Shown: positions 9,411 to 61,518 of the stretch, in pieces
Layout: the number at the start of each line of letters is the position of its first letter
Position numbering within the stretch: the stretch's first letter is position 1
NCBI RefSeq assembly: GCF_016097555.1
Contig: NC_054713.1
Span: forward strand, 12,512,806 to 12,576,805
Source: Gigantopelta aegis
Lineage: Eukaryota > Mollusca > Gastropoda > Neomphalida > Peltospiridae
Reading direction: 5' to 3'
Length of the DNA stretch: 64,000 bases
Notes under the pieces: model-generated
The model's database searches: none
Seen by the model: only the letters and a program-made list of their open reading frames with translations
Told to the model about the DNA's origin: nothing
Position numbers and translations under genes: made by a program

Positions 9411-10001
9411 TTACAAAAGTTCCTCTTTATCTGCCAAAAGTTTGCGATATGTTATTTTTAATTCCTGAAGCTTTAGCTTCAAATTAGCTATCGTCACACT
9501 AACGTCTATGGCTGCTTTAAAACTAGACTGACTTCGTCGCAGGTTCTGAGGCACCAACACCCCAAACCAGTTTATGGGATCAACAATGCTCTTTTTGTGT
9601 TTACCATCTGAAGCACTTTCATTCTCGTCTGTTGGAATACCACCCAGTCCAATTGTTTCTACATCCAACTTGTTTCCCTTTTCGTCATCATTTACAACAT
9701 TTCGTTTTCTCAACTTTGACTCTTCATTTGTTTTCTTTTTGTCAGAATCCTGATTAATTATTCTCAGAACAGTGTTTCCATTGTCTTGCTGGATTTCCAG
9801 TTTGACTAGAGCTTTCATCTCATCTTCATTGAACTGCGCTGGGGTCACAAAGTTCGTGCCCATGTTGTACCTCGAACGAGACAGGTCAAGGAATCCGGAT
9901 TTCATGAGATCGCCAAGACATGCCTGTTGTTGGTACAGTTGTTCCAGAATGTCAAAGAAATCCAACAAGGTTTCGTCCAGCTTTTCACAAATGGATTCCA
10001 T
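9411..10001 (-). CDS. CCDC115: CCDC115 homologue, V-ATPase assembly factor (Vma22-like)
   Basis: A single uninterrupted 196-residue reading frame. Residues 141-151, DPINWFGVLVP, followed by QNLRRSQSSFK, match the signature of human CCDC115 (DPLNWFGILVPHSLRQAQ). Residues 1-45 and 155-196 are heptad-like helices around an acidic/lysine-rich linker. CCDC115 (yeast Vma22) works with TMEM199 in the ER to assemble the Vo sector of the V-ATPase. The start is the first ATG after an in-frame TAG at 10022-10020. Human CCDC115 is 180 residues, so length fits. Having no intron is unusual against the multi-exon vertebrate gene. The stop TAA is followed by 23 more in-frame coiled-coil codons (see findings). 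A possible AATAAA is near 9085. Confidence 0.85.
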   Translation of the reverse strand: MESICEKLDETLLDFFDILEQLYQQQACLGDLMKSGFLDLSRSRYNMGTNFVTPAQFNEDEMKALVKLEIQQDNGNTVLRIINQDSDKKKTNEESKLRKRNVVNDDEKGNKLDVETIGLGGIPTDENESASDGKHKKSIVDPINWFGVLVPQNLRRSQSSFKAAIDVSVTIANLKLKLQELKITYRKLLADKEELL

Positions 10002-10318
10002 AACTGCATGTAAAAGTTTCTAGTTTTATTCTGAAGAAATAAAATCTGAAATGAAAAAAGGAAAGGGGCTCATTATAATAAATAATAATAAAATTAAGTC
10101 TCTCTTTAAGCCACAAATATTTTCTCAAAACAGCTGAACAGGAGTTTCCTTTGACACTGTCAGTCAAATGTAATTTTAAAACATACATTTATTAATATGT
10201 CTATCAACAAAACTGTTAAACAACCACTTCAGCTGATTCAGTCTCCAGTGTCAAAGTAAAGTCCTTCCCTTTTAACAAGTCACAACATCCCCTCTACCTC
10301 CATAACATTTTAAAAAGC
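10002..10318. other. Upstream region of CCDC115
   Basis: This AT-rich sequence between the CCDC115 start codon and a TTAA-flanked element should hold the promoter and 5' UTR. I see no convincing TATA box or initiator. Confidence 0.3.
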
Positions 10319-14137: not shown

Positions 14138-17100
14138 GTAACTATGGATTAGGTTTTTACTTTTTAGTTGGCAACGGTCGTTGGCGTCACAGGTACCCCC
14201 CAAACAAAAATCCCTAGTACTAATACTATAGTTACATATATTGTATAACAACTATAGCCTTATCTGTGCTTGGCGTTGACTGTTACCGTAGCCTAACAGA
14301 CGTAATGTTCAGACACGGTGGAAGCAATTGAATGAAATCGCACAACCAATTTATTGTAATAAACAGTGACATTCCCGTCTGCTTATATGTATATAGAGTA
14401 CTGCGATTTCGCTCAGCAGTATATGGAATTTACGGGCGAGATCACCCGGAAGAGATCAACCGGTGATGAAATCGCCAGACTCCAGCTGTGACACTAAACA
14501 AGTCGGGAGTCTTGATTTAATTAATGTTTTGGGTTTGATACTGTTCTTTATTCCCAAGCTTTTGTTTTTTCTGTCATTGCTTTTGTTCAGTTTACTCCAT
14601 ATCAGCAAGGTTGGGCGAGATCGCCGACGTTTTGTGTACCATTTCATTGTACACTTACTTATTGTTTGAGAACATATTAATGTAACAAATTAATAAAATT
14701 CAAACTCATCTCGTTAATTATGAGTGTTCATTGTTAAAACTAATTATATAATTAACGTATTCCCATGTGTTACAGGCGACATACGTAGCGGAAGATCCGG
14801 TTGACTATTTCCACGACCACCCTGTCCTGCAGATGTCATAGAAGACTCACTTGTTGAACCACCAAGCTTAATTGTTTAGAACATTTATTAAGCAGAAATA
14901 GCAACAGTCCCTTCAATTTACATACACTATGTACATACACCCCAAAGTAGCCTAAGTCCGGACAAAACTACGGCGATTTCGCCCAGCTTCGATCGGCAGA
15001 ATACAAACACTAGCTAACACTTTAACAGGCAAAGACAGAAAAAAAGGACACATCACATTTGATTTGAACATTGTTCGTATCATTTCATGCAGTAAATGAT
15101 AGTAATATAAACATTTTAAATAATAACATTCCTCTTTAGTTAGATATATATAGTACGGCGATTTCGCCCAGCAGTATATGGAATTTACGGCGAGATCGAC
15201 CGGTGGCGAGATCGCCCTACTTCTCACAGCTCACTTGGCACCTTGTCGCTGTATGTCGCAGGGGCGTAGGCTGGGGTGTGTGTGTCAAATGACCCCCCCC
15301 CCACCCCCAGCTGAAGCAATGGTCCACTTTCAGAACTAAAACGTATACACGTTTATACATACGGAGTTTCTGGTGGTGCAAAAACAGAATAGAAAAAGTG
15401 TCCACTTGGTTCATATTTGACCCTGCCCCCCCCCCCCCCCCCCAAGTCCATATCACACTATGCCCCAGTGTCAATCTGTGTTTTCACTTTGGCTCCAGAC
15501 TGTATTTCAATGCATGTCACGCCATTTGCAGTGACCAGTCAAGCGTTGTTAATCCTCTGCCACATTCTTTTGAGTATTGCCAAAAAATACTAATTATTAC
15601 TTTCATTTTAACATAACAATTCATAATTAAATACTTAACAACACATAATTAACTACTTAATAATATTACGTTTTTCGTTTTGTTTAAATTTTATTACCAG
15701 AAGTACATATAGTATTTTATAAATTTAGATCGAAATATTACGATCAGAACCAAATTCAGAATTTTTCCGAAGGAACATGGTACATGGCAAAATGTTATGA
15801 AATGTACCGATAAATGTTCACTGTGCCTATTTGTATCAAACTTCTCCCCTTTCTTCTGGAAAGGGAGAAGTCACTTCTACTTTTTCAATTCTAGATTAGG
15901 GCCTGCTTACAATGAACAATTATACAATCCATTAAAATAATTTGTTAGGGTTACAGAACTTCCCAAATATGAATAATAATATTTGAAAAACTATCATTCA
16001 GCAATGTATTATTTTCAAGTTGCGATGTATTATTATTGTATACACATGTAGTATGCATTAAAAAAAAAAATGACATGATTCCAAATATGTTATTTACATA
16101 AGATTCATTAGCTTTTATCTATATATATTTATTACATTTACAGATCTGTTGAATTACATACATTTACTGTGTCATGCTTATGCAAATTAACTTGGGAGTT
16201 AAATTTGGACAAATGTTTTCAGTCTTATCATACAGGGACTCATTCTATATTGTTCGTTTGACTTGGTACCAAACTAAATATTTACCATAACTATCAAATT
16301 GAATATTGCTGTTTTTACATACATGTAGGTGTGACCCAAATGATGCAGCAGACTTTTCGTTATTCCTTGAGGGAGTCGAAGACAATTTGGACGCAGATTT
16401 TGCCACCGCCGGTCTTGCCGACAGAGCGATACTCACACTGTGCCTGCTTCTTTGATAAATCCATGTACGTTTTTGGCGGGTGCACCTTGAGTAACACGAC
16501 TTTCAACGACCTGTGGAGATTCGATCTGGCAACCCGACAGTGGATCCGTCCACTTGCAATGGGTTTGTGTTTACACATCTTGCAGTTGCAAATGTCATCG
16601 TCAAATTAGCAAATTGCTAATATTAATACAAAGTGGCTACAACATTTAGTTTTTGGCTAATAAAATATTAACATCTATAATAACATCTAAATATTGAATT
16701 TGATTGCTATCTTTCTTTTTTATCCTTTTTGTCAGGTCAGACTAAATAAATACATTTCTAAAACATTTAATATAATTCATTTTATATGAAGGAAAAAGAA
16801 AATGTTTTTGTAGACTAACTGAAGATTAATCAGTATCAAATTATGTTTGCCATGTTGCAACTGCTTTATTTTGTCTGTTTTAAACCATAAGTGACTTAGC
16901 AACGATAACCTATTGATACATGACTGCACAATGCATGCTACATCAATAATGTTACCTTGGTTTATTAGCGACATGTATTTGCCAGAGCTAACTCTGGCAC
17001 TTGCCAAATTCGGCAATTGCGAATTTTGAAACAAGTTGGCGAATTTTACTTTAATTTGGCGAAATAATTTCATGTAATAATTGAATTTTTTTTTAGAAAA

Positions 17101-20100
17101 CAACTATTGATTTCTGCAATTTTTAAAAGTTTAATAGACAATTTGGCGAAATATTTTTCTCACCCAGAGCTAGCCCTGATTTACATATACTCATTTTAAC
17201 AGGTTCTTACCCGTCGCCGAAGGCCTGTGCATCCATGGTTGTGTACAAGGACAGTCTGGTATTATTTGGAGGGTGGAGCCATCCTACTCCATTCCCCCTA
17301 CATCAGGTACTGTAAACATTGTCTATTCCCTTGCATTATGTATAGTATGCATCGGGGAACATTTTGTTCAGTATCATGTTATGATGCACTACGCCAGTAT
17401 CAGAGATAACTACTCAATTCTAAAACAGATCACCAACTGTTGCTAATCAAAGTTTTTAAAACAAAATGTTTCATGCAGATACAGTATTAACTTTGCTTGA
17501 GGTATAATGAACATTCTATACACCCCCTGTGGTATGTGCTATCCTATCTGTGGGATGGTGCATATAAAAGATCCCTTACTACAAATGGAAAAAGTAGCGG
17601 GTTTTCTTTCTAAGACTATATATCAGAATTACCTAATGTTTGACATCTAATAGCTGATGATTAATATATCAATGTGCTCTAGTGGTATCATTAAACAAAA
17701 CAAACTGTCTATATATCCCTTGCATCAGGTATAACAAAAGTTCTACATTCCTTTTGCATCAGGTGTCAAACATTCGATGTGCCCCATGATTCACATACAT
17801 AAGACATTATATATTGCCATTACATCAGATATCCATGCAGCAAAGTTTTGGTGTTCCCCTGCCACAAGGTATTGCAAACATTGCTTATTCCCTAAAATCA
17901 TTTAAATTGTATTCATCCCCAACAATTTCTGTTGTACCCCTGCTTAGCCTTAATAGAACATAAAGTTGATATGACATCGACCATTTGACAGAATGATGGA
18001 ACATATCGATAATTTGAATAAATGCCTGGCTACATATTTTAAAGCTATCTTAGTGCTACAAAATTGTGAACCCATTGTAGGCTGTGACGTCGCTACAGCA
18101 CACACCATAGTGACGTCATAGCTTATGATGGTTTTACGATTTTATACCGCTAAGATATTTAAAAAAAAAAAAAAAAAATTTAATTAAAAAAAAAAACGAC
18201 AAAAAACCTGCCACGAAAATTCAACACAGAGATAAAGAAATTTTTTGTTTTTGGACATTACAAACATGGATGATGATGAGATGAATAGTGAGGCCACAGT
18301 ATGTACATTTCGGTATGGGACTACATGACAGGGCCGTGCTTCACGCTTGCTGTCAGTTGAGCTATCTCGATATCACTCGAGCCCAGGGTACATGGAACCT
18401 GCAGTGCATACTGGGTAATCATCCCCCATGTGGGGTCATACACTCGGGAGACACACCCATAATCGCACCCGTGAAGTGGGTGAAACTCGATGTATGTGCC
18501 CTTACACCTACCCATTGAGCCTAGCAGTGCACTCACTCTGGGTTGGAGCCGGTACTGGCCTCAGGTGGGATACGAACCCAGTACCTACCAGCCTCAAGTC
18601 CGATGGCATAACCACTACACAACAGAGGCTGGTTTTGTAGCACAAAGATAGCTTAGAAAATATGGGCCCAGGTTTTGATAGATTTATTACAGCATGTATA
18701 CAGATGCAAATAGATTCGCTGATCCATTCAGACAGTTGCCCACACATTTTTCTCTCTCCAATTTTCAACATTAATTTTTATTTTGTTTTTATCCCCATCA
18801 TTTCAGGCGGACCGTTTTTTCAACGAGCTGCACATGTACAACCCTGAATCAAACCGCTGGATCCAGCTGAACAGTGTGTCGGCATCTGTACCGGAACCAG
18901 TGGCTGGTCACTCCGTGTCCATCGTTGAAGACCGGATGGTTGTGTTTGGCGGGTCGCACGTCCCAGCGGCAGGGTAATTGAGTCTTTGCACAGGAAAGGA
19001 AAAGAGTGTCTCTTTAAAGAGAGGGGAAGGATGCAGCCCAGTGGTAAAGCGCTCGCTTGATGCACGGTTGATCTAGGATCGATCCCCGTCAGTGGGCCCA
19101 TTGATCTATTTCTCGTTTCAGCCAGTGCACCTTGACTGGTATATCAAAGGTTGTGGTATGTGCTATCCTGCCTGTGGGATGTTGAATATAAAAGATCCCT
19201 TGCTACTATTGAAAACAAAAATGTAGCGGGTTTCTTCTCTAAGACTATATGTTAAAATGACAAAATGTTTGATATCCAATAGCCGATGTTTGATATCCAA
19301 TAGCCGATGATTAATTAATCAATGTGTACTAGTGGTGTCGTTAAACAAAACAAACTTTTAACTTTAAAAGATCATGGAAAGTCATCTAATTGTTTAAAAA
19401 CTAAGTGTACCAACCTTGTACTAATTAGTAAGTAAACATTGTAGACCACTGTATTACTCAGGAGATCCTTGTTAAATGATTTTTTATATTTCTTTTTTCA
19501 CAGAAGCAATGATGTGTGGGTCTTTGACTTTGAGTATTTGTCTTGGAAACAACAGCCGATAGCTGGTCCAAGGCCAAATATGCGATACGGTCAATCTCAA
19601 GTGAGTTTTAAATGTTTTTCTTAGGTCTTGAAAGAAGCAGAATTAACTTACCTGTGCCGTTATTGTTCATTGAAAGTCATTTGTGGTCAGAGTTCCATGA
19701 CTGTTATGTCAAAGGTCATGGTATGTACTGTCATGCCCATGGAAGGTGCATATGAAAGATGCCTTGCTGCTTATTTGATAAGAGTATCCTGTGTGGCAGC
19801 AGCAGGTTTCCTTTCAGCCATATTTTAAAATAACCATATGTTGGACACCAATATAACTGTATAAAATGTGGCGAGATATTCCTTTCCTTTCTTTTACAGT
19901 AATATGGAATAATCTGATTGTATTAACAGTTTGAGATGCACTGTCTGTTTGGGGGCTGGACATAGCCCATTGATAAAGCGTTTGCTAGATGCGCTGTCGG
20001 TCGAGGATCAATCCCCGTCGGTGGACCCATTGGGCTATTTCTCGTCCCAGCCAATGCACCACAACTTATATCAAAGGCAGTCGTATGTACTATCCTGTCT

Positions 20101-23100
20101 GTGGGATGGTGCATATAAAAGATCCCTTGCTGCTAATCGAAAAGAGTAGCCCATGAAGTGGCGACAGCGGGTTTCCTCTCTCAACATCTGTGTGGTCCTT
20201 AACCATATGTCTGATGCCATATAACCGTAAATAAAATGTGTTGAGTGCGTCGTTAAATAAAACATTTCTTTCCTTCCTATCGGTTTGGTATCGATTGATC
20301 CTGTTGGTGGGACCATTGGGCTATTTTTCATTCCAGCCAGTGCCCCACAAAGGCCATGGTATGTGTTATCCTGTTTGTGGGTTGGTACATAGAAAAGATC
20401 TCTTGCTGCTAATGGAAAAATGTAGCGGGTTTCCTCTCTAAGACTATATGTCAAAGTTGCAAAATGTTTGCCATCCAGTAGCCGATGATTATTAAATCAA
20501 TGTGCTCTAGTGATGTCAGTAAACAAAAGAAAACTTTTAACAGTTTGATTTTACTTTTGTTGCAGACTACCATTGATGACAAGCATATCTTAATTCTGGG
20601 TGGATGTGGTGGGCCCAACCAGGTTAGTTCAGATTTGTGTTTCAGGTGATTTTTACTTTTTATATTTTAAAGTATGTGTAAGAGTCTGGTTCTTTAACCT
20701 TCAAACTACTGGATTAATATTTGTCAAAAACCACGTTGAATGGGTACAGATTTATTACTTTTACTTTCATATTTTCACCTAAAATTTGTATAAGTACATA
20801 AAATAAAGTTTATATTTTAATCGGTAAGTATTATTTTCGTGAGTTTTTCTCATTTTTATGTTTTGGATCAATTATTGTTGATTAAAATTAGGCAAAAAAT
20901 TAAAAAAGTCACGTTTATTTACAGGCATTTGTGGCCAGATGTCTATTATTCCCAATAGTTGTGTTTTTCTGACCAGTCATTTTTTGGGAAAGAAACTACG
21001 ATTCATATCCCAATATTTCGTGATTTTCATTGTTGGTAAAATGGTTATATTTATTATCAAATTAGCTGTCAATCAGCTATCAATCCTGAAAATTACAACG
21101 ATATTCCGCCATTTTTGTCAAGTTAAAATACTTTGCCGAAAACCACTTTTTCAACTAAAAATTCCCAGGTATTTTCCATTAAAAAACCTATAAACTAAAA
21201 CTTTTTTACTCTCAGTTAATGTATTTCCTGTTCTGTTATTATTTCCGGTGAGTGCAGTGTGCAGGAAATATGAATTGGGGAATGCACTGTATACTGTGTA
21301 CAGTGTGTCGACTTGCGAGTATTGAGCTAGATGGCTTCGCCTGCAGTAGTATGAAGGTTAATTGTAAATTTTTAATATCTGGCAGCCATCTTAAGGTCAA
21401 CAAGTCTGGATGTATTAAAATATTTCTAATGTATATGATCTACAGCAAAGTAAAATGTTTTGATGTAGATTAGGCCAGAGGCCATATACTGAATAAATAA
21501 ATATACCATCTGTATGTAAGAATATGCCTGGTTTGTTTGTACATTTTTAATGAGATCTGGCTGCAATCCCTGTTTTATGACACATGTAAGAAACTCTTTG
21601 TTTAACTGTAAATTTTTAATAATATTTAATTGTATATTTTTAATGATATTTAATGGTACAGATTTAATGATATTTAATGGTACATTTTTATATTTAATGG
21701 TACATTTTTGATATTTAATTGTACATTTTTAATGATATCAGGTTGCTATCTTTATATTATGATACATGAAAGAATGTGTTTAATTGTATATTTTTAATTA
21801 CATTTTTCTGCTGTCTTTGAATCAACAAGACAGACATTAAAAAATATATTGTAATAGTATCACACATATATGTAAGAATTGTTTAATTGTAGATTTGTAA
21901 TATCTGGTTGCTGGCTGTATATTATGACACATGAAAAAATAAGTTTAATTGTAGATTTTTAATGGCATCTGGCTGCTGTCTTTGGATCATCAAGACATTA
22001 AAAAAAATATTGTAATAGTATCACCCATGAAAGAATGTGTTTAATTGTAGATTTTTAATGATATCTGGTTGCTGGCTCTTGGTCGAGGAGACTGGACATG
22101 GGCAGAGGTGAAAATCAATAACAGCGAGTTTGCAGCCACCCAGCTTTGGTGTCACCCAGTGTGTAAGGTAAGCTACTTTGTAGGGGTGAGTTGTGATGGA
22201 GAGTTCAGGGAGGGAGTTTACAGCGACCCAGCTTTGGTGTCACCCAGTGTGTAAAGTAAGCTACTTTGTGGGGGTGAGTTGTGATGGGGAGTTCAGGGAG
22301 GGAGTTTGCAGCGACCCAGCTTTGGTGTCACCCAGTGTGTAAGGTAAGCTACTTTGTGGGGGTGAGTTGTGGGGGTGTGTGTCAGGGTGGTTGTTAGTGG
22401 GGAGTTTGCAGCGACCCAGCTCTGGTGTCATCCACTGTGTAAGTTAAGCTACTTTGTTGGGGTGAGTTGTGAGGGGGGTGGGGTTCAGGGTGGTTGTCGG
22501 GGGGGAGTTTGCAGCGACCCAGCTCTGGTGTCACCCAGTGTGTAAGGTAAGCTGCTTTGTGGGGGCGAGTTGTGAGGGGGGGTTCAGGGCGGTTGTAAGG
22601 GGGGAGTTTGCAGTGATCCATCTCTGGTGTCACCCAGTGTGTAAGGTAAGCAAAGAAAGAAAGAAATGTTTTATTTAACGGCGCACTCAACACATTTTAT
22701 TTACGGTTATATGGCGTCAGACATATGATTAAGGACCACACAGATTTTGAGAGGAAACCCGCTGTCGCCACTACATGGGCTACTCTTTCTGATTAGCAGC
22801 AAGGGATCTTTTATTTGCACTTCCCACAGGCAGGATAGCACAAACCATGGCCTTTGTTGAACCAGTTATGGATCACTGGTCAGTGCAAGTGGTTTACACC
22901 TACCCATAGCCCTATAATGTAACTGGCGGCAAGCATATGGCAAAACGACGTACACAAATATAATTAAATGAAAGTGACCGTCCTTGCACGGGTACTCGAG
23001 TCCTGTGAACGGACTCCAGTCTTTGCTAGACTCTGTCCGAGTACTCGTGGAGACCCTAGACTACCTCCTCCACCCACTGCTTCCTACACATTTATTGTGC

Positions 23101-26001
23101 ACTAAGGGGTTCAGTTATGCGAACCATACCACCCCAGAAAGGTCCCTTAAAGGCGCAGACTCTAGTTTTAACCCGTAAAAATAGAAACTAAGTTTAGTTA
23201 ATTTTCAAACCTGTAACTCAGTTGGATAAAGTTACAGTAGAGTGAAAGAAGAGTCTGTGACGTTAAAACGGGAAACATCCTTAAAAATAGACAAGAACTC
23301 GAATCAATAAACCGCTACTTCTCAGACGCATGTGCGTTTTTAAAAATATGAAAAATGCATTTTGTAATATTAGAAACAACAGGATGACCAGAAACACCGG
23401 TTCTATGGAAATGGATAATCTAAACAATAAAATATAAGTAATGTTTGATTTCAGTGATCATAAACAGCTCTAATAGTGAAAAAATAAGCTGTAGTGTTTA
23501 AAAACTAGGGTTTGTCCCTTTAATCACCGATCTAAATATCGACACCATGTGATTATTTCAGAAAATTTGAGAAATTTATCTGAATCGAATTCTTAGTATA
23601 GTTGTACTGAGGCGAGTTGGTACGGGGCTAGTAAAGTAAAGTTTGTTTTATTTAACGATGCCACTAGAGCACATTGATTTTTTGTCTTATCATCGGCTAT
23701 TGGACATCAAACATATGGTCATTCTGACACTGTTTTTTAGAGGAAACCCGCTGTCGCCATATAGGCTACTCTTTTACGACAGGCAGCAAGGGATCTTTTA
23801 TTTGTGCTTCCCACAGGCAGGATAGCACAAACCATGGCCTTTATTGAACCAGTTATGATTCACTGGTCGGTGCAAGTGGTCTACACCTACCCATTGAGCC
23901 TTGCGGAGCACTCACTCAGGGTTTGGAGTCGGTATCTGGATTAAAATTCCCATGCCTCGACTGGGATCCAAACCCAGTATCTACCAGCCTGTAGACCGAT
24001 GGCCTAACCACGAGTCCACCGAGGGCGGTGTAAGGTAAGCTGTTTTGTGGCAGATTGGGGTGGCATGAGTTTGCCGCAACCCAGTGTGTAACGTAAGCTG
24101 CTTTGTGGGGGTGAGTCAGGAGGTGGGTGTGTGAGTTCGCAGCCACCCAGCTCTTGTGTCACCCAGTGTGTAAGATAAAGTGCTTTGTGGGGGTGAGTTG
24201 TGAGGGTGGGAGGGTTCAGGGTGAGTTGTAAGGGGGGGAGGGTTCAGGGCAGTGGTCACGGGGGAGTTTGCTGTGATCCAGCTCTGGTGTCGCCCAATGT
24301 GTAAGGTAAGCTGTTTTGTGGCAGATTGGGGTGGCACGAGTTTGCCGCAACCCAGTGTGTAACGTAAACTGCTTTGTAGGGGTGAGTCAGGGGGAGGATA
24401 AAGTGTAAAATAAAGTGTTTTGTGGTACATGTAAGCTGCCTCGGGGAAGTTCACCACTGCTTCATCAAGTTCGTGGGGGTAGTGGTTGAGGGCGGGGAGT
24501 TTGCTGCCAACCAGCTCTGGTGTCGCCCAGTGTGTATGGGATCTTTCATATGCACTTTCTGATAGACTGGACTGCACATACCACAGTCTTTGATATACAA
24601 GACATAGGGCATTGGTTAGGATGGGTAAAATCTAATGGGTCTGTTGCAGGGGATCGATCCTATGAGTCCAGCACCTCAGGTGAATATTTTACTGACTGAG
24701 CTAGATGCTGCCCTCTATAATCTGAATGCCAAATAGCTATGTTTAAACATTTTAGCCCTACTTTACTTAATACAATCTTACTAATACTAATAATCGGATA
24801 TGCTACATAAAGAGGAAGATAAAGATTAAAACACTAAGATTGGGGGGTGGGGGTGGAGGCAGGATATTCATATTGACAAAATACTTGAATGCAGCATTTA
24901 AAAATAAAAATTCACTAACCGTTGGGCATGGCAATATTAGTTATTTACTAGCCCAACATTGAATATCACTAGCCATGGGAGTGGGGCTACCATAATCTAG
25001 AAGCCCTGGTGTTGTTAAACAAACATTCCTTTCTTTTTTTTTCTTTTTTTCTTTTTCAGGTTGGTAATACCTTGGTCATCTTGAATAAACCTCCCAAATC
25101 GAGCGAGTCTGTATCACAGACGAGTCATCAACAGCACATCCAGTCAAATCGAGTTTTACAACCAGCAGTGATACCGAGAGAAAATCAACCAGCCAGATAC
25201 GGGAACAGAGAACCAGAAAATCAACCAGATTCACTAATCAACCGACTGGGTAAAAATCGCCTTAGCACCTCATCGCAACAGAACCCAGGTGGTGGATTTG
25301 TTAACCGGGAACCGGAATACCAACCAAGGTTATCGGTTCACCCACCAGCCGAACACCAACCAGGGCTGATAGCAGCTGTGAACAGAACACCGGAAAACCA
25401 ACCTCCATGTCAGTCGGAAAACCGTCTCGGCGGAAAGCAACTGGGCGTTGCTGCCAGGGCCCTGCATAAAAATCCATCACTGGGTCTGATGGATCAGGGC
25501 GGTTCCGACCTCGATCACAGGGGTGGGACCTCGAATCTCCGTCCCGGCCATCCGTCCGTGAAACCGAACTCCATGCACGATCGGCAGAAGCAGCTGGACC
25601 TTCTCCGGAAGTACGAAGAGCGGATCCGCCAGCACCGGAGCCCTGCATCATCGGGGGGCCAGGGCGGAGTACGGTCGCTCCCGGCAACGTGTGATAATAG
25701 CGTGACGACCCCCCGCGAGTCCAGAATTCCCATGTGTCTTTACCTACTGGACATCGGCTCAGTCGCGCAGACCCAGACCTCCACATGGCTGTGCCCGCGA
25801 GAAACGTTTGTGTGCAACAGCGTGGACGACCGTTCTATCACCATTTTCTACTCCCTCGTTGAGGGCTGGGGGGAGCTCGTTCTGTTCGGAGGGATTCAGA
25901 TGGATCTGTCGTCGACGCAGAGACGAATGGACATGAGCTCAAAGTCGCACCTCGTCAGTAACAATCTGTACGTCCTGCGTGCCTGTAGGCGAAGGTTCTG
26001 A
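13969..26001 (+). CDS. FBXO42: FBXO42 homologue, F-box and Kelch-repeat substrate receptor of SCF ubiquitin ligase (8 exons)
   Basis: Exons 13969-14137, 16329-16562, 17203-17306, 18807-18973, 19504-19600, 20566-20622, 22051-22167 and 25060-26001 splice in frame to 628 residues (human FBXO42 is 717). Residues 20-57 are an F-box ([20 protein letters not shown]). Residues about 80-315 form Kelch blades with repeated FGG/LGG turns ([35 protein letters not shown]). A low-complexity middle follows, then the conserved C-terminal LYLLDI and GELVLFGG segment seen in the human protein. FBXO42 binds SKP1/CUL1 and recruits substrates, reported in mammals to include p53. No upstream in-frame ATG exists near 13969. 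The introns are loaded with SINEs, and exon 7 has duplicated edges. Confidence 0.9.
14138..16328 (+). other. FBXO42 intron 1
   Basis: 2.2 kb. It holds a dispersed GCGATTTCGC repeat, AT-rich stretches, and a C-rich patch at 15290-15312 and 15427-15443. Confidence 0.6.
14397..15217. repeat. Paired repeats with GGCGATTTCGCC palindromes
   Basis: 14397-14476 and 15151-15217 share GCAGTATATGGAATTTACGG. Two more inverted short copies lie at 14606-14627 and 14964-14985. It may be the edges of an unclassified element. Confidence 0.45.
16329..16562 (+). CDS. FBXO42: FBXO42 exon 2 (first Kelch blade)
   Basis: Acceptor catgtag|GTGTGACC, donor ATGG|gtttgt; phase 1 in and out. Residues 57-134 include [20 protein letters not shown] and [18 protein letters not shown], colinear with human FBXO42. 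Confidence 0.88.
16975..17185. repeat. TTGGCGAA-rich repeat with hairpin end
   Basis: It begins with a perfect hairpin, GCCAGAGCTAACTCTGGC, carries several TTGGCGAA copies, and ends CCCAGAGCTAGCCCTGA about 20 bp before exon 3. Confidence 0.45.
17203..17306 (+). CDS. FBXO42: FBXO42 exon 3 (Kelch blade)
   Basis: Acceptor tttaacag|GTTCTTAC, donor CATCAG|gtactg. Residues 135-169, [20 protein letters not shown] then [14 protein letters not shown]. The human equivalent is [20 protein letters not shown]. Ends in phase 0. Confidence 0.88.
17529..17707 (+). mobile_element. SINE core and tail
   Basis: TGTGGTATGTGCTATCCTAT through GTGCTCTAGTGGTATCATT and AAACAAAACAAAC; head absent. Confidence 0.75.
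18042..18656. mobile_element. 615-bp TIR element carrying a tRNA-like SINE head
   Basis: Inverted 20-bp ends AGCTATCTTAGTGCTACAAA and its near inverse (TTTGTAGCACAAAGATAGCT). The interior has two TGACGTCA-like sites (about 18086 and 18111), an A run, and a minus-strand tRNA-like head with B box GGTTCGTATCC (18480-18635). Confidence 0.65.
18807..18973 (+). CDS. FBXO42: FBXO42 exon 4 (Kelch blade)
   Basis: Acceptor atttcag|GCGGACC, donor GCAGG|gtaatt, phase 2 out. Residues 170-224: [20 protein letters not shown], then [20 protein letters not shown]. Confidence 0.87.
19022..19366 (+). mobile_element. SINE-B, full length
   Basis: Head GCAGCCCAGTGGTAAAGCGC, B box GGATCGATCCC, core and tail AAACAAAACAAACTTTTAAC. 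A 21-bp piece of the tail (TGTTTGATATCCAATAGCCG) is duplicated. Confidence 0.85.
19504..19600 (+). CDS. FBXO42: FBXO42 exon 5 (Kelch blade)
   Basis: Acceptor ttcacag|AAGCAAT, donor TCTCAA|gtgagt. Residues 225-257: [20 protein letters not shown] then RYGQSQ, matching human SNDVWVLDLEQWAW and GGQSQ. Confidence 0.87.
19640..19872 (+). mobile_element. SINE, old and diverged
   Basis: Recognisable by GGTGCATATGAAAGATGCCT and GCAGCAGGTTTCC in the expected order. Confidence 0.55.
19952..20278 (+). mobile_element. SINE-B, full length, type-2 tail
   Basis: Head CATAGCCCATTGATAAAGCG, core, then ACCGTAAATAAAATGTGTTG and CGTCGTTAAATAAAACATTT. Confidence 0.85.
20283..20542 (+). mobile_element. SINE, head degraded
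   Basis: Directly follows the previous SINE; core GGGCTATTTTTCATTCCAGCC and type-1 tail with AAACAAAAGAAAAC. Confidence 0.75.
20566..20622 (+). CDS. FBXO42: FBXO42 exon 6 (57-nt Kelch exon)
   Basis: Acceptor gttgcag|ACTACC, donor AACCAG|gttagt. Residues 258-276, [19 protein letters not shown], nearly the same as the human [16 protein letters not shown] segment. Confidence 0.87.
21355..22050 (+). repeat. Tandem copies of FBXO42 exon 7 acceptor edge
   Basis: At least six degenerate units carry TTAATTGTAGATTTTTAAT followed by ATCTGGTTGCTGGCT-like sequence (e.g. 21355, 21600, 21777, 21881, 21943), period roughly 60-160 bp. The last unit is the true acceptor and exon start at 22039-22080. Confidence 0.75.
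22051..22167 (+). CDS. FBXO42: FBXO42 exon 7 (Kelch blade, with amplified edges)
   Basis: Acceptor taattgtag|ATTTTTAATG, donor TGTAAG|gtaagc; 39 codons, residues 277-315: [20 protein letters not shown], then [14 protein letters not shown] (human ELWCHPACR). Copies of its first ~35 nt with the acceptor lie upstream, and many copies of its last ~44 nt with the donor lie downstream. This is the only copy in which the two halves are continuous. Confidence 0.85.
22168..22650 (+). repeat. Tandem copies of FBXO42 exon 7 donor edge, first block
   Basis: Five units of about 90-105 bp, each with GAGTTTGCAGCGACCCAGCT, then CTGGTGTCACCCAGTGTGT and a copy of the AAGgtaagc donor, followed by a G-rich intronic part (CTTTGTGGGGGTGAGTTGTG). 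Confidence 0.9.
22651..24021 (-). mobile_element. Composite SINE-flank-MITE-SINE insertion
   Basis: Read on the minus strand: SINE-A head and body (24021-23636), then flank CTAGCCCCGTACC, a family A MITE (23523-23147), a parent repeat (23146-22907), then the core and tail of a second SINE (22906-22651). GTAAGGTAAGC borders both ends. 22905-24021 matches 34990-36113 closely. Confidence 0.8.
23147..23523 (-). mobile_element. TTAA-MITE family A, within composite
   Basis: TTAA at both ends, TTAAAGGCGCAGACTCTAG and CTAGGGTTTGTCCCTTTAA. Confidence 0.78.
24022..24536 (+). repeat. Tandem copies of exon 7 donor edge, second block
   Basis: The array resumes after the composite: further units near 24064, 24125, 24262, 24340 and 24491 with CCCAGTGTGTAA and donor-like GTAAGCTG, more diverged than the first block. 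Confidence 0.8.
24537..24716 (-). mobile_element. SINE fragment
   Basis: GGGATCTTTCATATGCACTT through GGGGATCGATCCTATGAG and a head remnant (GACTGAGCTAGATG). Confidence 0.65.
24840..25013. mobile_element. CAGGGCTTCTAGA element, partial copy
   Basis: Same sequence as the right half of 26065-26387, ending TAATCTAGAAGCCCTG; 46 bp before FBXO42 exon 8. Confidence 0.65.
25060..26001 (+). CDS. FBXO42: FBXO42 exon 8 (linker and conserved C-terminus, stop)
   Basis: Acceptor ctttttcag|GTTGGTAAT after a long T-rich tract. Residues 316-628. After [13 protein letters not shown] the protein becomes polar and repetitive, with several NREPExQP-like units (residues about 340-450), then a basic stretch ([15 protein letters not shown]). 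It ends with MCLYLLDIG and [14 protein letters not shown], the conserved FBXO42 C-terminal blade. TGA at 25999-26001. Confidence 0.9.
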   Translation, partial: VGNTLVILNKPPKSSESVSQTSHQQHIQSNRVLQPAVIPRENQPARYGNREPENQPDSLINRLGKNRLSTSSQQNPGGGFVNREPEYQPRLSVHPPAEHQPGLIAAVNRTPENQPPCQSENRLGGKQLGVAARALHKNPSLGLMDQGGSDLDHRGGTSNLRPGHPSVKPNSMHDRQKQLDLLRKYEERIRQHRSPASSGGQGGVRSLPATCDNSVTTPRESRIPMCLYLLDIGSVAQTQTSTWLCPRETFVCNSVDDRSITIFYSLVEGWGELVLFGGIQMDLSSTQRRMDMSSKSHLVSNNLYVLRACRRRF

Positions 26002-34710: not shown

Positions 34711-35209
34711 GTGTGTGTGTGGGGGGGGGGGGGGGGTTAATGCGTAATCTTAAAAGTTGGGGTCAGTACCTCCGTGGGCCTCCATGAGTCCAAAATATTG
34801 GACTCGAGTACTCAAGGGTCAAACTCGACTCTGACCACTTACACTAGATCTATGATAATGAGACTAATAAGGAATAAAGCAAAATAGCATTATACATATT
34901 GATTCCAGGACCGAACATGGATGCCAAATCATGCCATTGTATTGCATTCCACACATTCGACTTTTTGTTTTCCCTCCTATCCATGTCGCATAGCCCTATA
35001 ATGTAACCGGCGGCAAGCCTATGGCAAAATGACGTACACAAATATTAAATGAGAGTGACGGGTATTCGTGAACAGACTCCAGTCTTTGCTAGACTCTGTC
35101 CGAGTACTCGTGGAGACCCTAGACTACCTCCTCCACCCACTGCTTCCTACACATTTATTGTGCACTAAGGGGTTCAGTTATGCGAACCATACCACCCCAG
35201 AAAGGTCCC

Positions 35210-35588
35210 TTAAAGGCGCAGACCCTAGTTTTAACCCGTAAAAATAGAAACTAAGTTTAGTTAATTTTCAAACCTGTAACTCAGTTGGATAAAGTTATAA
35301 TAGAGTGAAAGAAGAGTCTGTGACGTTAAAACGGGAAACATCCTTAAAAATAGACAAGAACTCGAATCAATAAACCGCTACTTCTCAGATGCACGTGCGT
35401 TTTTAAAAATATGAAAAATACATTTTGTGATATTAGAAACAACAGGATGACCAGAAACACTTCGGTTCTATAGAAATGGATATTCTAAACAATAAAATAT
35501 AAGTAATGTTTGATTTCAGTGATCATAAACAGCTCTAATAGTGAAAAAATAAGCTGTAGTGTTTAAAAACTAGGGTTTGTCCCTTTAA
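35210..35588 (-). mobile_element. TTAA-MITE family A, within composite
   Basis: TTAAAGGCGCAGACCCTAG and CTAGGGTTTGTCCCTTTAA ends. Confidence 0.78.
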
Positions 35589-35721
35589 TCACCGATCTAA
35601 ATATCCACACCATGTGATTATTTCTGCAAATTTGAGAAATTTATCTGAATCGAATTCTTAGTATAGTTGTACTGGGGCGAGTTGACCAACCGCTGGGGCG
35701 AGTTGGTACGGGGCTAGTAAA

Positions 35722-36113
35722 GTAAAGTTTGTTTTATTTAACGATGCCACTAGAGCACATTGATTTTTTATCTTATCATCGGCTATTGGACGTCAAACAT
35801 ACGGTCATTCTGACACTGTTTTTTAGAGGAAACCCGCTGTCGCCATATAGGCTACTCTTTTACGACAGGCAGCAAGGGATCTTTTATTTGTGCTTCCCAC
35901 AGGCAGGATAGCACAAACCATGGCATTTATTGAACCAGTTATGATTCACTGGTCGGTGCAAGTGGTCTACACCTACCCATTGAGCCTTGCGGAGCACTCA
36001 CTCAGGGTTTGGAGTCGGTATCTGGATTAAAAATCCCATGTCTCGACTGGGATCCGAACCCAGTACCTACCAGCCTGTAGACCGATGGCCTAACCACGAC
36101 GCCACCGAGGCCG
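35722..36113 (-). mobile_element. SINE-A with 12-bp target duplication
   Basis: Flanked by GTACGGGGCTAG at 35705-35716 and 36115-36127. Head, core and type-1 tail are all present. Confidence 0.85.
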
Positions 36114-36181
36114 GTGTACGGGGCTAGTTAACCTGCTCCCTTCCTAGCGGGATATGAACCTTTAAAATATTCTAGAGTTCA

Positions 36182-42701: not shown

Positions 42702-45700
42702 TCTTCAAAAAAAGAAACGCAAAAGGGTACAAATGGGTTATAACTCCGATTTTATGTTTCCTACCGGTTCATGGTTTGTGAATATAAGGTCATTGCATGT
42801 CCCAAACACATTCCCACGGTTACATTCGATAAAACGCAGCTACTGTACAATAAAGTTCCAAAATGTGAATATTCGCAAAAACGCAGCCACGTGCAAACCA
42901 TGTCACCACTGCACGTGCGTTGTCTGCACGTGCAACATGAACACCGACAGTATGAAAGTGCAGGGTATTCGCTTGCCTGGCCTCTGTATCTGGCCGACAG
43001 TTGACAATCCAGGACATGCCACGTCTCGGTGAACCGCAGAGAAACAATGCCATCGGCCGACTAGACGCAGGCGAATCCAGAACGGCCGTTGCCAGGGCAT
43101 TCCATGTGTCCCCAAGCACCATCTCCAGACTGTGGGACCGTTACCAGCAACATGGATCAACACGTGACCTCCCTAGATCCGGTCGACCACGGGTCACTAC
43201 CCCCGGGCAGGACCGCTACATCCGGGTACGCCACCTTCGGGAACGATTGACTACTGCCACCTCCACAGCCGCAGCAATACCAGGTTTGCGCAGGATATCC
43301 GACCAGACCGTACGGAGCCGTCTACGTGAGGTAGGAATTCGTGCCAGACGTCCAGTTCGAGGTGTCATCTTAAAACCACAACACCGTCGACTCCGACTGC
43401 AGTGGTGCCAGATTCATCGACAATGGCCTCAACTGCGATGGAGACAGGTGTGGTTCAGTGACGAGTCCCGATTTCTGCTCCGACGTCATGATGGAAGATG
43501 TCGCGTGTATAGGCGTCGTGGTGAACGTTATGTGGCAAACTGCGTGCAGGAAGTGGACAGATTCGGCGGGGGTAGTGTCATGGTGTGGGCAGCCATCTCA
43601 CACACTGGCAGAACTGACCTGGTCCACGTGCAGGGCAACCTGAATGCACAGGGCTACATTGACCAGATCCTCCGGCCACACATCGTTCCAGTTATGGCCA
43701 ACGCCAACGCAGTGTTCCAACATGACAACGCCAGGCCTCACACAGCACGTCTCACAACGGCTTTCCTACAGAACAACAACATTAATGTCCTTCCTTGGCC
43801 ATCGATATCACCGGATTTGAACCCAATTGAGCATCTATGGGACGAGTTGGACCGACGCCTCCGACAGCGACAACCACAGCCCCAGACCCTGCCCGAGCTG
43901 GCAGCAGCCTTGCTTGCAGGCCGAGTGGGCCACCATCCCCTGGGACGTCATCCGTACTCTGGTTGCTTCAATGGGCAGGCGGTGCGAGGCAGTTGTCAAC
44001 ACACGCGGAGGCCACACCCGGTATTGACTCCAGATGACCTTGACCTTGGTGGTGTGTCCTATCACTTACTCACAATGGACTAGAGTGAATTGTGAACAAT
44101 CCTGCAACATTTGGTAATTATCGGACTCACCATTCAATAATTAAATCAATTCTCCAAATGTTACGACAATGTGGTTTTGCGTTTCTTCTTTTGAAGAGTA
44201 TATATATAGTGTACATTTGGACATCGCGTGAAGACATTGAATCGCTTCAGTCTGGTACCTAATCCCTTCTCAATTGCAATAAAGATGATCAAAGATTAAT
44301 GAAGAAATCTGCTCCCACTACATTAGATATTTCTACCGGAAAACAGCAAATAATATTTATATGCACAGACATAATATCAACTAGCACGGTATTTAATATA
44401 TAACAAGCATGGGTTACTGGTTCAGATGAGAAAAACCCAATGGGCCGATTTCATATGTCTAGGTTATCGGTGGGTTTTGGAAACATATGGTTTACACCTG
44501 GATTAAACCATGGGTCATGTTTACCGTGCATTTCACATGTCTGTTTTTCAGTAATCCTAGTTTAACACTGGGTTACAACTGTATTGCTTGTTTAAACCTG
44601 CCTTTGAGGTGGTTTTTCGCTGGGTTTGCTCAAAGTAACTTTTCTTCATGGATAATTTCGGCAGCAAAATCGTGTTTTACGTCAGTATTGCAGAGCCATG
44701 AAATGTGAACGTATTTTGGAGATCATTTGAAGCCACTACAGAAACAGTGGTGTAGCCGGGGGGGGGGGGGGGGGGTGCCCTGCCCCCCCCCCCCCCAATC
44801 CCGGCAAAATTAGGGGTGATCAGTGGCGTACTCAATATCATTGTTTACTTGGCTGCCAGGTGCCCCCCCCCAAAAAAAAAAAAATCCTGCCAACGACACT
44901 GTACAGAAACGAATATAGGGTGGGGGTAGGGGGGTTCCAACCCCCTCCCCCTTTAAACAAGATGCCCTTTTGCCTGTTTTTTTTTAGCACGACTGTATAA
45001 TTAGATCCACCTCTTCACCATGTTCGTGGCGAATGAACAACAAAGCGCCTGAGATATATAGAGGATAATAAACGAGATACCAGGTATTACGTCCCGAATC
45101 AAATAATGTTTAGTTGTCGCGAGCTTTAGCGAGTGACAAATGAAAAGTATTTCACTCGGGACATACATTGATAATAACTGGTACTGAGTTTTCTATTCTA
45201 TTTATTACCCCAGCTATGTTTTCTCTAAACGCCTTTATTTTAGGCGCACATGCACGTACATGTAAGCTATTGAAACAATGTAAACCACTTTACACACTGT
45301 TCTGGGTATTGCTATAACTTTGCATTTTAATCACGTTCACAGATAATTTTCAAAAACGAAAGTTATCGTTATTCTGCTAAAAATATAAATAATGATCTGC
45401 GTTAAAATGACATTTTGTTATAAATTTAATATTAAAACAGTCCTGAAAGCAAACACATTAAAGTATATGACGTCATTTTGTGTGTTTGCCAAATCGCGAT
45501 GATGTTATATTTAGTACCGACAAAGTCATTGGTTTGTAAGCGTCAAATCATCTAGTAATATTGTACGTCACAACACTGCATAATATTTCTCATTGAGAAA
45601 ATACGGAAAATATTTTCCCTGTTATGAGTGGTCACTGGGGGTAATGCATATAGTTATTTATTAAATTAGTAAAAATAAACATTTTCTTCATGGTGTATGA

Positions 45701-48700
45701 ACTTCACGAAAACAGGAAGTACTAGTAATGGAAGTTGATCGGTTACCACCGGCATCAAAGCAATAAACGTCTATCATAGACTGCAGTCTTATAATGACAT
45801 ACTTTCGTGTTTGTCTCGTCTTAATAAAGGGGGAACAAGGCGGTACAGGCCCCCAGTTTTGAAAATTTGACCATACGTTATCTCGGTGCCCTCAGGCGTA
45901 CGCGTCCCATCTTTTGTTTTTTAATATTATGTTAGAATTAAAGGGAAATGCCAATAACAAAACGTTTATTCATATTTGCATTATTACCAACAGCTATGTA
46001 GGGTTCTGTAAGTATTTTAGCATTATTACCAACAGCTATGTAGGGTTTTGTAAGCATTTGACATGGATTATAACTAATATTGTGAGTAAAATGATGGAAA
46101 TACATGGTGAAACGTTTTCAGGCCAGCTCATTTCCCCAAATATGTCCATCATTTTTGACAGAATGTGAAGGTTTGCTCCACATTGAGGGGGGGGGGGGAG
46201 GGGAGGGGAGGGGAGGAGGTAGCTAATCCTCCATCTCGAACGCGAATGCTAATAATATACCAGTAATGAGTTTCAACTACAAAGTGATGAAGTGTAAGCT
46301 ATTCCTCGCTTATGTCCCTTTCCAAATCTGCGGGTAACCCATGTAAAAAGCGTGGTTTTGTAAACACGGGTAAAACACACACTTGTGAAATACACCACGG
46401 GTGTAAGTCTTGGTCAGGTTTTTCAGCGTTTTACGTAAACCAGTGTTAAACCTAGGTTTTGATATGACCCGGTGTTTTCGAAACCCAGACATATGAAATC
46501 GGCCCATTGTGAGTCCACCGAGGAGGCTAGATCACATGACCCAAAAGCACCTCGATTGATCGCTCTACTACTAGGCTAAATATAACCCATAAAACAGCTG
46601 AGGTTATTCTCAAATGGTCCATTCCGTTATTGTGTGCTCCACAGCTGGTATATCAAACGTTATGGTATAAGCTATTTGTGAGTGCGAGTAACACACCTAT
46701 TTGCTGATAATCGAAAGGAGAAGCCTAAGTGGCAGTAATGATTGTCTTAAAATATACTCTTCAAAAAAAGAAACGCAAAAGGGTACAAATGGGTTATAAC
46801 TCCGATTTTATGTTTCCTACCGGTTCATGCTTTGTGAATATAAGGTCATTGCACGTCCCAAACACATTCCCACGGTTACATTCGATAAAACGCAGCTACT
46901 GTACAATAAAGTTCCAAAATGTGAATATTCGCAAAAACGCAGCCACGTGCAAACCATGTCACCACTGCACGTGCGTTGTCTGCACGTGCAACATGAACAC
47001 CGACAGTATAAAAGTGCAGGGTGTTCGCTTGCCTGGCCTCTGTATCTGGCCGACAGTTGACAATCCAGGACATGCCACGTCTCAGTGAACCGCAGAGAAA
47101 CAATGCCATCGGCCGACTAGACGCAGGCGAATCCAGAACGGCCGTTGCCAGGGCATTCCATGTGTCCCCAAGCACCATCTCCAGACTGTGGGACCGTTAC
47201 CAGCAACATGGATCAACACGTGACCTCCCTAGATCCGGTCGACCACGGGTCACTACCCCCGGGCAGGACCGCTACATCCGGGTACGCCACCTTCGGGAAC
47301 GATTGACTACTGCCACCTCCACAGCCGCAGCAATACCAGGTTTGCGCAGGATATCCGACCAGACCGTACGGAACCGCCTACGTGAGGTAGGAATTCGTGC
47401 CAGACGTCCAGTTCGAGGTGTCATCTTAACACCACAACACCGTCGACTCCGACTGCAGTGGTGCCAGATTCATCGACAATGGCCTCAACTGCGATGGAGA
47501 CAGGTGTGGTTCAGTGACGAGTCCCGATTTCTGCTCCGACGTCATGATGGAAGATGTCGCGTGTATAGGCGTCGTGGTGAACGTTATGTGGCAAACTGCG
47601 TGCAGGAAGTGGACAGATTCGGCGGGGGTAGTGTCATGGTGTGGGCAGCCATCTCACACACTGGCAGAACTGACCTGGTCCACGTGCAGGGCAACCTGAA
47701 TGCACAGGGCTACATTGACCAGATCCTCCGGCCACACATCGTTCCAGTTATGGCCAACGCCAACGCAGTGTTCCAACATGACAACGCCAGGCCTCACACA
47801 GCACGTCTCACAACGGCTTTCCTACAGAACAACAACATTAATGTCCTTCCTTGGCCATCGATATCACCGGATTTGAATCCAATTGAGAATCTATGGGACG
47901 AGTTGGACCGACGCCTCCGACAGCGACAACCACAGCCCCAGACCCTGCCCGAGCTGGCAGCAGCCTTGCAGGCCGAGTGGGCCACCCTCCCCCGGGACGT
48001 CATCCGTACTCTGGTTGCTTCAATGGGCAGGCGGTGCCAGGCAGTTGTCAACACACGCGGAGGCCACACCCGGTATTGACTCCAGATGACTTTGACCTTG
48101 GTGGTGTGTCCTATCACTTACTCACAATGGACCAGAGTGAATTGTGAACAATCCTGCAACATTTGGTAATTATCGGACTCACCATTCAATAATTAAATCA
48201 ATTCTCCAAATGTTACGACAATGTGGTTTTGCGTTTCTTCTTTTGAAGAGTATACAATAAACTCAACAGCCTCAAACTGAAGAAATGCAGCGCGGTGTCG
48301 TTTAAGCACACGTTCCTTGCCATTTTTGTCGGTGTCTTATTACAATTCAAGATAGCTCTGGTTATTATAAATCAGGGCAATTCTTTGTTACAATTCAAGT
48401 CAGCTAGTTTATTACAATTCAGGGCAGTTGTTATTACAATTCAAGTCAGTATTACAATTCAGGGCAGTTTTGTTTACAATTCAAGGCAGGTATTACAATT
48501 CAGGGCACTACAGACCCCCTCCTTACGAAATCCTGGATCCGCCCCTGATATATATATATATATACTTCAAAAAAAGTAGGGGAACTCTAATAAGAATTTA
48601 CAATTGCCAAAATTGTAAGGTATATTAGCTGTGGGGAATGGTTATATGATAATAGTGAATTAATTGGACACACATTACAACCGGTAGTTCAATATAACAG

Positions 48701-60245: not shown

Positions 60246-61518
60246 CCGTTATGTTACTTTCTTTTCATTAATCACAGCACCCCCGAAAAAGAAAACAAAG
60301 AGTACTGGTGAGGTAGATAATACACCCGGCAGGAGTTTGTTGGACAACCATAAATATTAATAAAAATGTTACAGGTATGATTCAATTCCAATTATGTGAA
60401 TATAGACAAATTATTTGATTTATTTTTATCACAATAACCTAGTAATTGTATGCAACACACTACCATCCCAAGTTGTTCCTACATGTGAGGTTTGATGGTC
60501 CTGTATGCATCTGTATGCAAGATATGGTCCGGGGAAAAAAAGAGTTAATAGACGGATGTACGGACAATGCCAAACCATAACACGACCCATCATAGACGGG
60601 CGTATAAAAAAAAAAAGAGAGAACCCCGAAAAGATCTTCAAAGACGGTGCACACAAAAACACGACACCGCAAAACAAAGTGGTGTAAAAGCAATGAGAGT
60701 AGAAACATGGATGACAGGCAAGAACGTTTAACGACCTCGGGTCACTCTAAACTGTGGCCATTTGATGAAACTTGGTCTACAGTATAAGAGGACCACTGTT
60801 GCCACCACACAGGCTACTCCCTCTTGCAAGCGACATTATGTATTTCCACACAGGATAGTACATATTCTGGCACCAAGGTTGTACCTAGCTTAAAATGTCC
60901 GGGGGAGTGGAGGGAGAAGTAAAATAAAAAACAAGAGATACAGAGGTGTTACTCAAGACAAAAAGACCACCACCACCCCCCTACCAATCAAATAGATAAA
61001 TCCTGGGTACAATATCAAAGACAATGTTCCTATCACGAAGTTCCCAAGGAGAGGGGTAAGGGGGGAATCTGAAAAACTTTAAATTACCTGTATTTATTAA
61101 TGCCCAAGTTGTTTTAATATATATATTAGAATCTTGTTGGCTCAAAAAGAAATGGCCGTATACACCGCAACGCTCGAACCAAAAATGTTTCAGAGTTAAA
61201 CTTACAGGATGTTGACCGAATGGTTAGGTCGAACTATCCGATGGGTCGTGGAACACTTCCTTGAGCACCGACGAGGTTCGAACCAACGGGATCCAACAGT
61301 ATATATATATATCCTTAGTCTTTAATTCCAATGCCTCAAAAGAGCAGTGTCACTAACCACTCGCAACCATTGAACCCTGTTTTGGACAAATGGCTGATGT
61401 GTGTGCCCAGTACAGTATTCTTTAACCGTAATATATAAGCATAAAATACTAATTAAAAATAGGAAACAGAATAAAGGTTCTCATTAACAGGAAAGTTTGA
61501 CCACCAGTAGTGTAGTAG
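60246..61518. other. Downstream spacer
   Basis: Contains a weak minus SINE core remnant (about 60775-60870) and a degenerate tRNA-like stretch at 61212-61288 (B box GGTTCGAACC). No gene. Confidence 0.35.

Follow-up and report, generated by a model that had tools for sequence, protein, structure and literature searches.

Decaying minisatellites at both splice junctions of an FBXO42-like exon in Gigantopelta aegis

Both splice junctions of a single exon have been copied into the flanking introns of an FBXO42-like gene in the gastropod Gigantopelta aegis. The acceptor and 5′ edge of exon 7 recur in eight upstream copies; its 3′ edge and donor recur in ten downstream copies, eight full and two shortened. 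Passive capture of these splice junctions by local tandem duplication is probably the best account of the arrangement. All coordinates refer to the window, the whole stretch of 64,000 nucleotides that was analysed (contig NC_054713.1, positions 12,512,806 to 12,576,805).

An exon between copies of its own edges

The plus strand of the window carries an F-box/Kelch gene, whose joined exon frames match the Pfam F-box and Kelch models. Among solved structures they match 'F-box only protein 42' best (9o04_C, E=3.5e-105; presumably the human protein), and exons 2-8 join into a single open frame with one terminal stop. The gene is thus a homologue of FBXO42, the name given to it by the first-pass annotation. 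The features considered here are the following:

20566..20622, plus strand: exon 6 of the FBXO42 homologue (open frame; alignment to F-box only protein 42)
21348..22050, plus strand: upstream minisatellite, eight copies (21348-21985) followed by the real acceptor TTTAATTGTAG, whose last base is 22050 (iterative Smith-Waterman; tandem repeats 21601-22077)
22051..22167, plus strand: exon 7, 117 nt, phase 0-0, IFNDIWLL...CHPVCK, aligned ungapped with LFKDAWLL...CHPACR of F-box only protein 42
22078..22125, plus strand: central 48 nt of exon 7, covered by neither tandem array (array limits by Tandem Repeats Finder)
22126..22651, plus strand: proximal downstream array of exon 3′ edge, donor and G-rich spacer; copies u1-u5 at 22214, 22302, 22402, 22505 and 22604
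22639..22651, plus strand: left 13-bp target-site duplication (right copy, 24028-24040)
22652..24027, plus strand: 1,376-bp insert made up of dispersed repeats and interrupting copy u5 (blastn matches at other places in the window; flanking duplication)
24028..24538, plus strand: distal downstream array, more degenerate; u7 at 24067 and u10 at 24338 (both shortened), u8 at 24133, u9 at 24264 and u11 at 24497
25060..26001, plus strand: exon 8, the last exon (open frame after the acceptor; VGNTLVIL aligned with VGQCVVVF)

The window holds several other features. An open frame at 9411-10019 on the minus strand matches Vma22/CCDC115 (E=5.9e-23), and one at 38508-39047 matches a PAN domain (E=1.2e-8). 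Two long open frames (42956-44083 and 47012-48079) match DDE_3 and Tc3-type transposases and look alike by eye. A satellite-like array of 38 copies of a 66-bp unit, with 96% matches, occupies 61517-63998 and reaches the window end.

The downstream array was first noticed as a roughly tenfold amplification of the exon 7 3′ edge and donor, and this amplification is real. Aligned with the downstream intron, the last 60 nt of exon 7 gave a Smith-Waterman score of 41.0, far above the maximum of 18.9 among 1000 dinucleotide shuffles. Ten copies exceed the 95% shuffle level: eight full ones (40-45 nt) and two shortened ones (18-19 nt). By exonic bases alone the shortened copies, u7 and u10, reach 14 and 15, where the shuffle maximum is 15.5; with donor and spacer included they score 33 and 32, versus a maximum of 18.4. 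A full unit contains about 42 exonic nt, the matches in u1-u5 extend over 22211-22645, and the proximal units measure 88, 88, 100, 103 and 99 bp. Exonic bases lie inside the repeat unit, as in the human CBS repeat, and the tandem units contain the exon's own splice site; the description of a minisatellite built from an exon-intron junction therefore holds. So does that of a G-rich spacer, with 42.5 and 41.7 G runs per kb in the two array parts versus 6.4 per kb in 16561-22050.

The first-pass annotation went further in placing a donor in each unit. The exact donor AAG/GTAAGC is retained in only four of the ten copies (u2, u4, u5 and u9). Three others are altered (u1, AAA/GTAAGC; u7, AAC/GTAAGC; u10, AAC/GTAAAC), so that seven of ten retain GT, and the remaining three (u3, u8 and u11) have lost it.

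The copies had also been presented as one array at 22120..24536. The array is present, but it is split by the insert at 22652-24027, which is flanked by two perfect 13-bp copies of GTGTAAGGTAAGC. Since the insert sits between u5 and the distal copies and carries this perfect target-site duplication, the downstream copies are one array divided by an insertion. The duplication contributes one extra perfect donor, at 24035. The insert is 93.7% identical to 34989-36118 over about 1.15 kb. A dispersed element of about 1.1 kb occupies 22905-24032 and 34989-36118 (93.7% identical); we take it to resemble a molluscan element, and its final 400 bp recur in at least two further places of the window at 92-94%.

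The upstream array had been overlooked. Its eight copies, at 21348-21985, pair the acceptor region with the first 13-49 exonic nt of exon 7; the copy at 21725, for instance, agrees with the exon at 22 of 23 bases, and that at 21893 at 23 of 24. When the acceptor is part of the comparison, each of the eight scores above the maximum of 200 shuffles (20.4-35.5 versus 19.0); by exonic bases alone four do so, and the other four exceed the 95% level only.

Copies were found only at the edges of exon 7. These edges scored 21.0 (5′) and 41.0 (3′), values reached by 0 of 1000 shuffles each; the 12 other edges tested in this gene were at chance (14 in all, from the 3′ edge of exon 1 to the 5′ edge of exon 8). 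Random placement of the window's tandem arrays would set two different ones on the two junctions of a single exon with a probability of 0.013, and 22 of 3999 rotations did so; these figures apply to a window that was picked for such an array, and a kinase exon described below (L046) shows the same arrangement. When 22051-22300 was sought in the G. aegis genome (1.149 Gb, 5216 contigs), all eight matches lay in the window, among the best candidates that were scored.

The copies are polar, with the 5′ edge upstream and the 3′ edge downstream, as expected of duplications crossing each junction. Their presence on both sides might also suggest that the whole of exon 7 was once duplicated in tandem and that the extra exons decayed to their edges. 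This history is the least probable of those considered, and was rejected: neither the opposite edges (5′ downstream, z −0.5; 3′ upstream, z −0.1) nor the exon middle (22091-22125, in either intron) have an above-chance match in 200 shuffles each, and the unit sequences of the two arrays differ. Nor is an assembly artefact at all probable. Tandem arrays are often mis-assembled, the genome is repeat-rich, and the copy number rests on one assembly; against this, the units differ from one another, the target-site duplication around the insert is clean, and the same architecture occurs on several other chromosome-scale contigs.

Divergence of the copies and predicted splicing

In array order, the eight full downstream copies carry 3, 1, 4, 2, 5, 3, 7 and 5 mismatches to exon 7. 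Divergence thus rises with order from the exon (Spearman 0.67; permutation p 0.04 one-sided, 0.066 two-sided). The same copies contain 16 distinct coding changes, six synonymous and ten nonsynonymous (W to L, T to I and H to R among them). Six of 16 does not depart significantly from uniform change (p=0.11), leaving the view that the coding parts vary mostly at synonymous or mild positions without demonstration at the codon level.

Two further observations bear on the history of the units. Among the exon unit and u1-u4, pairwise columns differ at 26 of 420 in the exonic part and at 55 of 433 in the spacer, a spacer figure that alignment of G runs may inflate. The lower exonic difference could come from constraint, from conversion between the exon and the units, or from errors in aligning the G runs. 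Moreover, five site pairs show all four combinations, and at 22137/22146 the exon is the only carrier of one of them; the pattern at this pair could stem from exchange between the exon and its copies or from recurrent change.

Two features downstream of exon 7 govern what its decoy donors could produce:

22186..22191, plus strand: candidate alternative donor GTGAGT (GGG/GTGAGT with the preceding bases), +18 nt, in frame, adding VSYFVG
22252..22254, plus strand: in-frame TAA, met by translation that runs on from exon 7 past the donors at 22168 and 22186

The first array donor is at 22256, and every listed array donor sits behind this TAA. Translation therefore predicts that donors at 22256 or beyond, if used, lead to a premature stop, which would make it impossible for them to back up the real donor productively. 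From the real donor to the stop, the site at 22186 is the only one that fits at least seven of the nine consensus bases. Its computed U1 pairing is stronger than that of the real donor (−10.4 versus −9.5 kcal/mol, with an assumed U1 5′ end sequence). It may be the one productive back-up, and it lies inside the first unit, so that the array is not needed for it. On the upstream side, both TAG decoys that were checked (exons starting at 21893 and 21955) run into stops.

These predictions weigh on the proposal that the array buffers the donor against mutation, in which the copies would protect the real donor from being lost or provide coding variants of different length. Four copies do have a donor identical to the real one, and the +18 GTGAGT site is in frame. 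The stop, however, precedes each listed array donor, the first unit is 88 bp and therefore shifts the frame, the coding changes have no significant synonymous bias, and the +18 site does not require an array. The proposal is unsupported, and we consider it very improbable.

A regulatory role has more to recommend it. Repeated donors and G runs might keep U1 and its associated factors bound to intron 7, tuning the FBXO42 level through premature-stop isoforms or intron retention. Decoy exons (intronic splice-site pairs that engage the flanking sites and promote retention) are a published idea, as excerpts of that literature present it. Only 33 of 4085 GT sites on the plus strand of the window have a computed U1 pairing at least as strong as that of the exon 7 donor, itself included; 15 of these 33, again counting the real donor, fall in 22051-25059. 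The G-run density (about 42 versus 6.4 per kb) and the stop ahead of the array donors from 22256 onward would also suit such a role. So would the acceptor of exon 7, with a polypyrimidine tract (7 of 17) that is the poorest among seven acceptors (10-17 in the others). On the other side, the donors decay (three of ten without GT), the unit length is variable, and a 1.4-kb insert splits the array. Arrays of the same kind at unrelated kinase exons, described below, make a gene-specific role unnecessary. A regulatory decoy thus appears unlikely, if less so than the alternatives already discussed.

Edge copies at other exons of the genome

Similar copies were sought at kinase and kinesin exons of the same genome. 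The kinase sample comprised 40 of 136 kinase-domain matches, hand-chosen (mostly short, mostly stop-free, on chromosome-scale contigs), and the kinesin sample 12 chosen from 124 matches; neither is random. Because the ends of domain matches approximate those of exons, the rate found for exons is expected to be an underestimate.

In an initial pass, with each match extended by 30 nt on either side, 12 of 80 flanks in 10 of the 40 kinase loci exceeded a z of 5, and two loci, L046 and L069, were two-sided. Three of these candidates were doubtful: in L052 the overlap with the match was only 8 nt, and L048 and L069 were weak or repeat-like. A filtered pass (overlap of at least 15 nt, complexity filter, score of at least 22) retained eight of 80 flanks in seven of 40 loci, with L046 alone two-sided; at a score of 20 there were nine flanks in seven loci, and L069 was also two-sided. 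Non-coding pseudo-exons of the window served as the control for the filtered pass; at a score of at least 22, matches occurred at 193 of 1200 flanks, in 167 of the 600 pseudo-exons.

Copies per locus were tallied against fixed score cut-offs (20 or 22) and not against shuffles. By this count, five of the 40 kinase loci have arrays of at least three copies of an acceptor and exon edge. Four of them have upstream copies: L056 (14), L074 (13), L070 (4) and L078 (3). The fifth, L046, has nine upstream copies and 32 donor-side segments downstream, and so is two-sided as in the FBXO42-like gene. L045 has two copies and L068 a single one. Among the kinesin exons, one of 12 (L082) has a donor-side copy.

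A uniform test of 60-nt edges detected copies at eight of 80 kinase edges: seven of 40 acceptors and one of 40 donors (acceptor versus donor, p 0.057). The single donor match, L057, looks like an intronic repeat just after the donor rather than an exon-edge copy. Control non-coding points matched in 57 of 480 cases in the same loci and 35 of 384 in loci lacking an exon match, points inside one locus not being independent, and in 65 of 1600 cases in the window; an earlier, unfiltered window control had given 83 of 1200. Kinase acceptor edges exceed the window control (7/40 versus 65/1600, p 0.0014; p 0.02 for both edges together). Compared with the same-locus control they do not (p 0.31; 0.10 excluding loci with an exon match). 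The idea that exon edges are special targets is thus not supported overall (8/80 kinase edges versus 57/480 same-locus points): exon edges are captured about as often as non-coding sequence, with a possible preference for acceptors.

Passive capture would proceed as follows. The G. aegis genome would readily make local tandem duplications. One short duplication would have crossed the 3′ edge and donor of exon 7, and a separate one its acceptor and 5′ edge; slippage or unequal exchange would then have multiplied the duplicated units. Duplications that cross junctions would survive, their extra copies sitting in introns and drifting, because the original exon stays intact with the last acceptor and the first donor. 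Exon definition is an established concept and would account for the choice of the complete exon. Splicing would normally use 22050 and 22168, decoy use would yield premature stops removed by nonsense-mediated decay, and probably no array copy is under selection.

Support for passive capture comes from the polarity and drift of the copies, the loss of GT, the lack of significant synonymous bias, the confinement to the window of all matches scored for 22051-22300, the similar rates of copies at kinase edges and at same-locus non-coding points, and the arrays of like build elsewhere in the genome. Against it are the excess of kinase acceptor edges over the window control and the smaller difference in the exonic part than in the spacer. 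A concentration of 15 of the 33 strongest U1-pairing sites within 22051-25059 would also be striking if wholly inert, and the low chance of two different arrays meeting one exon at both junctions counts on the same side, subject to the choice of the window.

A broader reading is that splice junctions serve repeatedly as raw material for minisatellites in this genome, with edges copied in seven of 40 kinase and one of 12 kinesin exons sampled, and with edge and splice site repeated from three to fourteen times or more beside five of the 40. We regard this as evenly balanced. If true, the spliceosome must routinely choose the final acceptor, or the first donor, from a long series of near-identical ones, providing a natural, large-scale test of exon definition.

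Human parallels and significance

Three human repeats offer the closest comparisons. The CBS gene contains a VNTR with a 31-bp unit at the exon 13-intron 13 boundary, c.1444_1467+7(16_21) (PMC2630376, PMC1395315). Its notation, in the excerpts available, reads as a unit of the last exon bases and seven intron bases, hence including the donor, in 16-21 repeats. The exon 7 array shares this construction; it differs in its 88-103 bp proximal units, its decay, its insert, and the amplification of both edges rather than one.

The CBS allele 844_845ins68 duplicates the intron 7/exon 8 junction, and splicing strongly prefers the more distal copy, according to the available portion of PMC2630376 (whose 'splice donor sites' we take, by their position, as acceptors). 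The upstream array likewise duplicates an intron/exon junction, with eight degenerate copies rather than a single additional 68-bp one.

In ABCA7, an intron 18 VNTR has a 25-bp unit that begins at the exon 18 donor GT and varies in length among people; as excerpted, the report states that splicing at the donor of the following unit leaves one unit retained and the frame shifted, and that longer VNTRs showed more exon 19 skipping but not more unit retention (PMC5954066). Both cases are minisatellites that flank an exon and include its donor. Length variation and splicing were measured for ABCA7, whereas the present array is known from the sequence of one assembly.

Tandem duplication inside a gene also figures in intron evolution: the available part of PMC4974935 reports a new intron gained by tandem genomic duplication. 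No new exon or intron is evident in the FBXO42-like gene.

By its anatomy, the exon 7 array belongs with the CBS and ABCA7 repeats, from which its two-sided build and its recurrence in one genome set it apart. No two-sided case appears among the matches listed in the open-licence literature, as excerpted there. The first-pass judgement that such a minisatellite is unusual was therefore right in part: edge copies recur in the same genome, and the kind is known from human CBS and ABCA7.

A single array of this sort is a curiosity with human parallels. Its copies may nevertheless have practical consequences, in that the exon edges of this genome may be set wrongly by RNA-seq aligners and gene predictors; PMC10632439 deals with false splicing between repeats, as its available portion indicates. 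If such arrays are as common as the small survey suggests, G. aegis would offer numerous natural constructs with near-identical splice sites in competition over known distances, and its genome would be one that can tolerate a heavy load of decoys around its exons.
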